From Lysobacter sp. yr284 (lineage in GTDB: Bacteria > Pseudomonadota > Gammaproteobacteria > Xanthomonadales > Xanthomonadaceae), in contig NZ_FNPT01000001.1 in NCBI RefSeq assembly GCF_900107375.1, positions 1,178,001-1,242,000 on the forward strand: a stretch of 64,000 nucleotides of DNA, written 5' to 3'. Below the pieces are notes generated by a model. That model searched no databases. It worked only from the letters and a program-made list of their open reading frames with translations, and had not been told where the DNA came from. Position 1 is the first letter of the stretch. Every line of letters starts with the position of its first letter. Below are positions 12,521 to 58,158 of this stretch, piece by piece. A program made the translations under genes and the position numbers.

Positions 12521-14290
12521 GTGAGCGAACCGAAGACAACCCGGAACCATTTGTGGCAATTGATCCGCCGCGGGCGGCCGTCGGTTGCCGCATCGTCCGT
12601 CGCCATGCTCGCCGCGCTGGCGTCGGTGGCGGGCTCGTTGTGGTTCCCGATCCAGACCAAGCACTTGATCGACCGCTTCGACGGCGGCGGCATCGAGTTG
12701 CAACAGGTGTTGCTGGTCGCCGCGGCCCTGGTCGGCGGCGCCGCCGCGGGCGCGCTGTCCGCCTACATGCTCGCGCGCATCGGCTACCAGGTGGTCGCGG
12801 AACTGCGCGCGGCCCTGGTCGAGAAGCTGCTGCGGCTGCCGGTCGCCTCGTTCGACAAGGAAAGCAGCGGCGAGCGCGTCAGCCGCGTGGTCCGCGATTG
12901 CGAAGCGATTTCCGAGCTGATCACCAAGCAGACCGTCAACCTGGTCACCGGCGTGTTGCTGCTGGCCGGTTCGATCGTGGTCCTGCTGCTGCTGGACGTG
13001 CCGCTGACGCTGACCCTGCTGGGTTCGGTCGTCGCCGCCTTCGCGGTGATGATACCGATCGCGTTCCTGCTCGACGGCCTCTCGCGCCGCACCCAGGACC
13101 GCGTCGCCCGGATCAGCGGCATCCTCACCCATATCTTCCAGGAGATCCGCCTGGTCAAGGCGTTCACCGCCGAAGACCACGAACGCCGGCGCAGCGTGAC
13201 CGAGATCGAGGACCTCAAGCGCCTGGGGCTGAAGACCGCGCGCGTGAACGTGGCGCTGGAGCCGGTGATGAGCCTGGCGATGACCATGGCGATCATCATC
13301 ATCCTGGTCTACGGCGCCGCGCGCGTGGCCGCCGGCGAGATCAGCGTCGGCACGCTCACCGCCTTCATCCTGTACATCTTCAACGTGGTCAACCCGCTCG
13401 CGCAGCTGACCAACTTCACCGCCGAGCTGCAGAAGGCCAAGGGCGCCTCGGTGCGGATCGCGGCGATCTTCGCCGAGCAGGAGGAAGAGGAGAAATCCAG
13501 CGTCCTGCCCGCGCCGCACAGCCCCGGCGGCCTGCTGGAATTCCGCAACGTGTCCTTCGCCTACGCCGGCCGCGACACCACCGTGCTCAACGGCATCGAC
13601 CTGCTGTTCGAGCCGGGCACCACCACCGCCCTGGTCGGCGCCAGCGGCAGCGGCAAGACCACGATCCTGTCGCTGATCGAGCGCTTCTACCAACCCAGTT
13701 CCGGCGAGATCCTCTACGACGGCCGCCCCATCGCCGACTATCCGCTGCAGCAGTGGCGCGGCGGCATCGGCTACGTGGCGCAGAGCGCGCCGGTCATGCC
13801 CGGCAGCGTGCGCGACAACATCGCCTACGGCCTGTCCGGCGAGTTCACCGACGACCAGGTGCGCTCGGCGGCCGAACGCGCCGGCGCGCTGGACTTCATC
13901 GAGCGCATGCCGCAGGGCCTGGACACCGTGCTGATCGAGCAAGGCAACAACCTGTCCGGCGGCCAGCGCCAGCGCATCGCCATCGCGCGCATGTTCCTGC
14001 GCGACCCGGACCTGCTGATCCTCGACGAGGCCACCTCCAACCTCGACAGCGAGACCGAGCACCAGGTGCGGCTGGCGCTGGAAGCGCTGATGCGCGGGCG
14101 CACCAACATCATCGTCGCCCATCGCCTGTCCACGGTGATCCACGCCGAGCGCATCTGTTTCCTCGAAGCCGGCCGCATCTCCGGCATCGGCAGCCATGGC
14201 GAACTGCTCGCCAGCCATCCCTATTACGCGCGCCTGGTGCAGCGCCAGTTCCAGCAACCGGTCGAGGCCGAACCGATGGAGGCCGGCTGA
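12521..14290 (+). CDS. ABC exporter (MsbA/BmrA-type half transporter) of the lipopeptide cluster
   Basis: A 589-residue half transporter with an N-terminal six-helix membrane domain (about residues 20-310) fused to an ATPase. Walker A is GASGSGKT at 373-380, the signature LSGGQ at 478-482, Walker B LLILDE at 498-503 and the H-loop histidine is H534. The start is GTG, with AAGG about eight bases upstream; no better ATG gives a complete protein. It likely works as a homodimer in the inner membrane. As first gene of the operon it is the natural candidate for export of the finished lipopeptide and for self-protection; the substrate is inferred from context. Confidence 0.88.
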   Translation: MSEPKTTRNHLWQLIRRGRPSVAASSVAMLAALASVAGSLWFPIQTKHLIDRFDGGGIELQQVLLVAAALVGGAAAGALSAYMLARIGYQVVAELRAALVEKLLRLPVASFDKESSGERVSRVVRDCEAISELITKQTVNLVTGVLLLAGSIVVLLLLDVPLTLTLLGSVVAAFAVMIPIAFLLDGLSRRTQDRVARISGILTHIFQEIRLVKAFTAEDHERRRSVTEIEDLKRLGLKTARVNVALEPVMSLAMTMAIIIILVYGAARVAAGEISVGTLTAFILYIFNVVNPLAQLTNFTAELQKAKGASVRIAAIFAEQEEEEKSSVLPAPHSPGGLLEFRNVSFAYAGRDTTVLNGIDLLFEPGTTTALVGASGSGKTTILSLIERFYQPSSGEILYDGRPIADYPLQQWRGGIGYVAQSAPVMPGSVRDNIAYGLSGEFTDDQVRSAAERAGALDFIERMPQGLDTVLIEQGNNLSGGQRQRIAIARMFLRDPDLLILDEATSNLDSETEHQVRLALEALMRGRTNIIVAHRLSTVIHAERICFLEAGRISGIGSHGELLASHPYYARLVQRQFQQPVEAEPMEAG

Positions 14291-14486
14291 GCCGCGCGCT
14301 CCGACTTCTTCGATGATCCACACGCCTTTTCGCCCGCCTCCACAGGACCGCGCGCCGCTACGACGCCTTATCCGCCGTAGCTGAAACACGGTCCGCATAC
14401 AGACCAGAGCCAGACGCCCCTTTCGCGAGGGCCGCGTCGAGTGGCCGCTTTTTCATCGAATTTCTTCAATCACTTCCGGTAGGCAT

Positions 14487-15458
14487 ATGGACATGAATAG
14501 AAAGCGATTGGACGGCGACGTGCCCGCCCCTCTGCTGGTCACGCCCATCCATGCCCATTGCGATCTCGCCTCGCTGCTGGCCGAGCGCGCGGCCGAGATC
14601 AAAGACGACCTGCTCGAACACGGCGCCCTGCTGTTCCGCGGGTTCGCGGTCGACAGCGTGGAAAAATTCGCCGCGGTCGCCGATCAGATCGGCAACGCCC
14701 GGCTCAACTACACCTATCGCTCGACCCCGCGCACCTCGCTCGGCGGCGGCGTGTTCACCGCCACCGAATTCCCGCAATCGCAGGAAATTCCCCTGCACTG
14801 CGAAAACGCCTATCAGCGCGACTGGCCGATGCTGGTGGCGTTCTGTTGCCTGACCCCGGCGGAAGTCGGCGGCGCCACGCCGATCGCGTCCATGCGCGAC
14901 GCCACCCAGGCCATCGGCGCGGGCCTGATGGACGAGTTCGAACGGCGCCGGGTCAAGTACGTGCGCCATTACCGCCCCTACGTCGACCTGCCGTGGGAGA
15001 CGGTGTTCCAGACCAGCGACAAGGCCGAAGTGGCACGGTTCTGCGACGACGCCGGCATCGAGCACGAATGGCTCGACGAGGAGACCCTGCGCACCGGACA
15101 GGTCTGCCAGGGCGTGGCCAGCCATCCGGTCACCGGCGAAAAGCTGTTCTTCAACCAGGCGCACCTGTTCCATGTCTCGTCCCTGGGCGAGGACACGGCG
15201 CAATCGATGATCGACATGTTCGGCGCCGACCGGCTGCCGCGGCAGTCGTTCTTCGGCGACGGCAGCGACATCCCCGCCGACATCCTCCAGGCCGTGCGCG
15301 ACGGCCTGAACCGGCAGGCCTACGACGTCGCCTGGGAACAAGGCGACGTCCTGCTGCTGGACAACATGCAGTTCGCGCACGGCCGCCGCACGTTCAGCGG
15401 CCCGCGAAAAATCGCCGTCACCCTCAGCAACCCCTATTCCGGCCACCTGCCGGGCTAG
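14487..15458 (+). CDS. SyrP/TauD-like Fe(II)/2-oxoglutarate dioxygenase, probable aminoacyl beta-hydroxylase
   Basis: A 323-residue TauD/SyrP-family oxygenase. The facial triad is visible as H104-C-E106 (PLHCENAY) and H298 (NMQFAHGRR), with R307 positioned to bind 2-oxoglutarate. A glutamate instead of aspartate in the first motif is normal for SyrP-like enzymes, which beta-hydroxylate amino acids bound to NRPS carrier proteins (SyrP acts on Asp). Gene position, between exporter and NRPS1 in one operon, points to hydroxylation of one residue of the peptide. Asn7 is my favoured target because Asp/Asn are the usual substrates, but this is inference. An alternative ATG lies two codons downstream (14493). 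Confidence 0.82.
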
Positions 15459-57839: not shown

Positions 57840-57939
57840 CGTGACGCGCATAACACCGCCGGAAACACGACTGCGGCACCATCGTCGCAGCCGCGCACCC
57901 TACCCCCGCTTCGCCATTCATATTCAACCGGAGTACGAC

Positions 57940-58158
57940 ATGACCAACCCCTTCGAAGACAACAACGGCACCTTCCTCGTCCTGGTCAACGACGAAAACC
58001 AGCACTCGCTGTGGCCCGAATTCGCCGAAGTCCCCGCCGGCTGGCGCACCGTGTTCGGCCCGGAGCAGCGGCAGGCTTGTTTGGATTACGTCGAGCAGAA
58101 CTGGACGGACATGCGGCCGGCGAGTCTGGCGGCGCTGGACGACGCGCGAGTGGGTTGA
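57940..58158 (+). CDS. MbtH-like NRPS accessory protein
   Basis: A 72-residue MbtH-family protein, which binds adenylation domains and keeps them soluble and active. The signature is complete: [10 protein letters not shown] at the start, [21 protein letters not shown], and [14 protein letters not shown] with the three conserved tryptophans. The ATG at 57940 is preceded by GGAG at 57930-57933; an upstream in-frame ATG at 57841 would add a 33-residue tail not found in the family. It lies 100 bases after NRPS2, is last in the operon, and is followed directly by a terminator. Confidence 0.93.

Follow-up and report, generated by a model that had tools for sequence, protein, structure and literature searches.

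WAP-8294A2 (lotilibcin), known from Lysobacter enzymogenes OH11 and L. capsici, is a menaquinone-binding lipodepsipeptide antibiotic whose 40-membered ring is closed through a hydroxy fatty acid (PMC6801147) and whose Asn at position 2 is hydroxylated (PMC12447380). In the published layout, which we used for comparison, twelve modules are divided between two NRPS genes, seven in one and five in the other, with epimerases in modules 2, 5, 7, 9, 10, and 11, N-methylases in modules 5 and 12, and a terminal thioesterase (PMC9581180). The same source gives the lysocin peptide sequence and the module orders of lysocin and of WBP-29479A1, the latter with 11 modules starting with Val-Arg. In L. capsici CK09, the WAP-8294A2 region has a five-gene order, and further WAP genes that L. 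capsici also needs lie at a second locus (PMC10384520). The WAP-8294A cluster was found in 10 genomes of a survey, and the doubly charged ion of WAP-8294A2 is listed there at m/z 781.914 (PMC11451712); the formula of the compound is C73H111N17O21 (PMC8235233). Repeats in clusters of this sort lead to fragmentation and misassembly, as a review has pointed out (PMC5484115).

Here, we describe such a cluster in Lysobacter sp. yr284, within a window of 64,000 nucleotides, by which we mean the whole stretch of DNA that was analyzed. Judged by its predicted modules, the locus is a WAP-8294A2-type cluster, a cluster for an already known kind of anti-staphylococcal antibiotic in another Lysobacter genome. 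Ten modules are found on the window contig, and very probably the operon has twelve, the copies of its first and third modules (Ser1 and Ser3) having been merged in the assembly and the loop between them left as a separate contig, C37.

Gene content of the operon

The operon at 12521-58158 has the WAP-8294A2 gene order, i.e., exporter, TauD dioxygenase, NRPS, NRPS, and MbtH (Table 1). A sequence-only reading of the window had placed the start and end exactly here, and the module list, MbtH, exporter, and dioxygenase that it reported are real. Chance resemblance to NRPS is ruled out, with C and A families matching the NRPS pieces at E ≤1e-115 (whole-protein). The ten adenylation domains are shared equally between NRPS A and NRPS B; methylase domains occur in window modules 3 and 10, there is one terminal thioesterase, and epimerase-type motifs follow window modules 3, 5, 7, 8, and 9. 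We told C and E domains apart by motif, as Pfam does not separate them. Five of eight proteins from high-G+C frames had no Pfam match in a first scan and are taken as non-coding; a later scan covered other frames there. A scan of the window against Rfam returned 0 matches at gathering score.

Table 1. Features of the WAP-8294A2-type operon and its neighbors in the window
Feature	Position	Strand	Description
TonB-dependent receptor	5138-8335	-	upstream of operon
TonB-dependent receptor	9045-11666	+	upstream of operon
ABC exporter	12521-14290	+	membrane and ATPase domains; Pfam PF00664/PF00005
TauD/TfdA dioxygenase	14487-15458	+	PF02668, E 1e-42; intact
NRPS A, as assembled	15584-35683	+	ATG at 15584; C-A(Ser)-T, C-A(Gly)-T, C-A(Phe)-MT-T-E, C-A(Leu)-T, C-A(basic, Orn-type)-T-E
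Ser adenylation core in NRPS A	17045-18046	+	1,002 bp; one copy in assembly
NRPS B	35664-57839	+	C-A(Glu)-T, C-A(Asn)-T-E, C-A(Trp)-T-E, C-A(Orn-type)-T-E, C-A(Val)-MT-T-TE
MbtH-like protein	57940-58158	+	PF03621, E 6e-31
TPR-containing Ser/Thr protein kinase and ECF-type sigma factor domain	59067-61370 and 61381-62994	-	downstream of operon

Adenylation codes and residue assignment

The adenylation codes of the window were read by eye from anchor motifs rather than with a trained predictor, and the residue names rest on a position numbering and code tables that we take to be correct. The codes of window modules 1 to 5 are DVWHVSLID (Ser), DILQLGVVW (Gly), DAWTIAAVC (Phe), DAMLIGAIC (Leu by position), and DTEDMGYVD (basic); those of modules 6 to 10 are DVWHVGSIG, DGTKLGEVG (Asn), DAGLVGEVW, DTEDMGLVD (basic), and DAYWWGGTF (Val). 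The codes of several other modules, namely modules 7 and 8 of relative G019, module 7 of G003, the Ser module of G005, one module of G004, and those for which automatic extraction gave no code, were likewise read by eye, from motif segments.

The names Leu, Glu, and Trp follow from where these modules stand in comparison with the module orders of lysocin and WBP (PMC9581180). The two modules that the sequence-only reading had listed as "?" are, by their codes, Glu and Trp, since these codes match the same positions of the lysocin-type cluster in G005: DVWH(V/I)GSIG stands at its position 8, where lysocin has Glu, and DA(G/A)..GE(V/I)W at its position 10, where lysocin has Trp. The basic modules of the window fit Orn loading, as the lysocin- and WBP-type clusters of G001, G002, and G005 have other codes (DTEDIGAVD, DTEDVGCVD) at their Arg positions. 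The basic module after Trp, which had been read as an added residue, corresponds to Orn11 of WAP-8294A2, a module that also has an epimerase (PMC9581180). The assignment of the locus to the menaquinone-binding lipodepsipeptides with a Gly-x-Leu-x-x-x-Trp motif is right, judging by the codes and the comparison with G005.

Relatives within the genus

We searched 20 genomes of the genus, including that of strain yr284, with the Phe-methylase module; 8 of them match at E ≤1e-150, and the cluster region was fetched from the seven others. Three of the seven, i.e., G003, G011 (Lysobacter sp. Root690), and G019, have 12-module clusters in which modules 3 to 12 match the ten of the window, and the Phe module is 95% identical to that of the window in all three. 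They differ from the window in that seven NRPS A modules lie in one open frame, of 9446 aa in G003, 9378 aa in G011, and 9326 aa in G019. The closeness to G019 extends to the exporter (96.3% identity), the dioxygenase (94.7%), the MbtH-like protein (98.6%), and the upstream flank at 6-8491, which is syntenic at 94%; in G003, the 15 kb fetched upstream held no comparable match to this flank.

G005 (L. enzymogenes ATCC 29487), which we call lysocin-type by module order, not by the product of the strain, and whose contig is cut at both ends, before the thioesterase, shares the Ser-Gly-Phe(MT,E)-Leu-basic(E)-Glu core, with the Phe module at 90%; unlike the window, it has Arg-type codes, followed by Gln, Trp, Val/Ile-type, and Thr-type codes. 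Identity of the window cluster with lysocin was rejected: Thr at positions 1 and 12, Arg at 2 and 7, Gln at 9, and Ile/Val at 11 without an epimerase are not found here. In the parts fetched, G001 and G002 (L. antibioticus 13-6) are of the WBP type. They have the Ser-Gly-Phe-Leu core and an ABC exporter that is 76% and 81% (partial) identical, respectively, to that of the window, whereas they start with Val-type and Arg-type modules. By tblastn, the dioxygenase had no match in what was fetched from G001, G002, G004, and G005, where contig ends cut some of the stretches.

G004 (C1:3098001-3168000 of a 6.3-Mb contig; loci L193, L194, L116, and L117) contains a rearranged WAP-like cluster. Its first part has Ser, Asn(E), an Asx-like module, and Gly, followed by modules without a Phe N-methylase, and its second part runs from Asx-like and Asn(E) modules to basic(E) and NMeVal-TE. 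This looks like a cluster for a different product, by way of replaced internal modules. The second part includes two open frames with an overlap of ∼800 bp, which may point to a frameshift.

The Asn2 module on contig C37

The genome of strain yr284 has 6.25 Mb in 46 contigs, with the window on contig C32. A 4,001-bp probe from the Asn2 region of G019 matches another contig of this genome, C37, over its full length at 86%. C37 (locus L128; 6,786 bp) is a single open frame without stops, encoding the end of the Ser1 module, the whole Asn2 module with its epimerase, and the start of the Ser3 module; the domain order is T-C-A-T-E-C, with an Asn code, and it runs up to the beginning of an adenylation domain. 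The whole of C37 can be aligned with G019 5918-12679 at 88% and, but for 4 bases, with G003 and G011 at 84%. The sequence-only reading had called the operon complete, and the probable front modules of the operon sit here, on another contig of the same genome.

The ends of C37 coincide with the edges of the Ser adenylation core of NRPS A: the first base of C37 corresponds to window position 18047, and the last to 17044. Both ends lie inside the Ser A domain, and both joins stay in the NRPS A reading frame. The head of C37 matches the window from 18047 with 77 bp exact and 372/383 overall (11 differences), and the tail matches up to 17044 with 27 bp exact and 157/174 overall (17 differences). 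For both head and tail, the best match outside C37 is at the exact edges of the core, which is present once in the genome, the next best match being 74%. The stretch of G019 that C37 matches is bordered exactly by the two Ser cores of that genome, at 4901-5917 and 12680-13681, and therefore the window and C37 together leave no gap. With the loop added, NRPS A would have 6,699 + 2,596 = about 9,295 aa, by arithmetic rather than from assembled sequence, a length close to the 9,326-9,446 aa of the 12-module relatives.

Compared on the assumption of one collapsed Ser copy, the residue order is that of WAP-8294A2. Of the twelve modules in two genes, ten are on the window contig, with the layout of modules 3 to 12, and the lacking parts are on C37, in frame at both ends, where the front of WAP-8294A2, from the end of module 1 through module 2 to the start of module 3, has its counterpart. 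All six epimerases, both N-methylases, and the terminal thioesterase of WAP-8294A2 are found, the module 2 epimerase motif being on C37. What sets this assembly apart from WAP-8294A2 is that the parts of NRPS A lie on two contigs, with one of the Ser cores absent.

Collapsed repeat or shortened synthetase

We consider it very probable that two Ser modules were collapsed into one, since the Ser core is single, C37 ends at the core edges, and the reading frame is kept on both sides; this reading draws exclusively on assembled contigs. In the cell, NRPS A would then have seven modules (Ser1, Asn2-E, Ser3, Gly4, NMePhe5-E, Leu6, and Orn7-E), and NRPS B five (Glu8, Asn9-E, Trp10-E, Orn11-E, and NMeVal12-TE). 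Modules 1 and 3 would have a common adenylation core of ∼1.1 kb, identical or nearly so; the assembler would have merged both copies and connected the starter C domain with the Ser3-Gly4 side, with the Ser1-to-Ser3 loop left over as C37. The intact dioxygenase fits a kept Asn2 module, given the hydroxylated Asn2 of WAP-8294A2. Some observations speak against a collapse. C32 is continuous through the Ser core, with no gap or N and the starter C domain joined to the Gly side, and the exact overlaps of C37, 77 and 27 bp, do not correspond to a single fixed k-mer length. Furthermore, the copies are not the same in the sequence next to the core, so an identical 1.1-kb core would require either recent gene conversion or smoothing during assembly. 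Conversion has a parallel in the 12-module relatives, in which the two Ser cores within a genome are 95.1, 91.8, and 92.0% identical, more alike than Ser cores between these genomes (85.9-90.0%). This likeness, seen in all three, points to gene conversion within a single NRPS gene. The window core is 87.4-90.8% identical to the six Ser cores of these relatives. Other contigs of the assembly also end in repeats, with identical stretches of 474 bp (ends of C3 and C9), 522 bp (starts of C4 and C22), and at least 600 bp (end of C6 and start of C27) in a comparison covering 62 of 92 contig ends, of which 5 hold N. The full repeats may be longer, so a failure of this assembly to span 1.1 kb is at most plausible. 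C4 and C22 start in NRPS-like sequence; thus, other NRPS genes of the assembly are also broken at repeats.

There is a slim chance that all or some cells of the strain carry a real ten-module gene from Ser1/Ser3 recombination, which would yield a ring-contracted WAP-8294A2 without Ser1 and hydroxy-Asn2. The ring would be 34-membered and the doubly charged ion would lie at m/z of about 673.38 (both by arithmetic), and module number would have changed by recombination within one gene. One form of this idea, in our view a very unlikely one, is a mixed population, with the 12-module gene in some cells, the recombined gene in others, and both assembled. Partial excision between direct repeats would also give a continuous contig plus a loop contig, but it adds an event where repeat collapse suffices, and the excised loop would presumably not replicate by itself, so the 12-module gene would be present anyway. 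A true deletion by recombination between the Ser1 and Ser3 A domains, with C37 elsewhere in the genome and a ten-residue des-(Ser1, Asn2) WAP-8294A2 as the product, strikes us as very unlikely indeed. The junction on C32 is continuous, the window is without N, and the greater likeness of Ser cores within than between the three relatives makes such recombination plausible. However, C37 would then have to lie between another two Ser A flanks, whereas the Ser core was found once, and the head and tail of C37 have their best match outside C37 exactly at the edges of that very core. A real deletion would provide a natural case of module loss via recombination between homogenized A domains.

We find it scarcely credible that the ten modules form a complete natural operon identical or closely related to that of WBP-29479A1, a possibility raised by the sequence-only reading. 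The ten modules do lie on one contig, but WBP has one module more and starts with Val-Arg (PMC9581180), and the WBP-type cluster of G002 begins with Val-type and Arg-type codes and has a Phe module only 79% identical to that of the window. WBP-29479A1 also has no terminal NMeVal module, and the identity was rejected. In a limited search of the WAP literature, we found no description of a ten-module WAP cluster in the portions available. The peptide of ten residues, two residues shorter at the front, is most probably wrong, with the Asn2 module on C37, and the ten-residue scaffold, which was the novel part of the proposal, is most probably an assembly artifact. A caution follows: a plausible "new" antibiotic scaffold from a single contig vanishes once the rest of the assembly is searched, and a synthetic decapeptide based on this contig would probably pursue an artifact.

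Predicted product and mechanism

Under the collapsed-repeat reading, the product would be a 12-residue acylated depsipeptide, which, as in the published family, may bind menaquinone and lyse Gram-positive membranes. By analogy with WAP-8294A2, the starter C domain would couple a 3-hydroxy fatty acid to Ser1, the twelve modules would extend the chain, and the thioesterase would close the ring via the fatty acid hydroxyl. The Ser1-to-Val lactone proposed earlier is unlikely because the WAP-8294A ring closes through the hydroxy fatty acid (PMC6801147). The TauD-type dioxygenase is probably the Asn2 hydroxylase, and the ABC exporter presumably secretes the peptide, which would then bind menaquinone in the membranes of Gram-positive bacteria, with lysis as the outcome.

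Neighboring genes

Two TonB-dependent receptor genes lie upstream of the operon (Table 1). In L. enzymogenes, higher expression of the TonB-dependent receptor gene of the WAP cluster doubled the yield of WAP-8294A2 (PMC6801147). Downstream, on the strand opposite to the operon, are genes for a TPR-containing Ser/Thr protein kinase and an ECF-type sigma factor domain; we regard them as neighbors and, by position, as candidates at most for operon membership.
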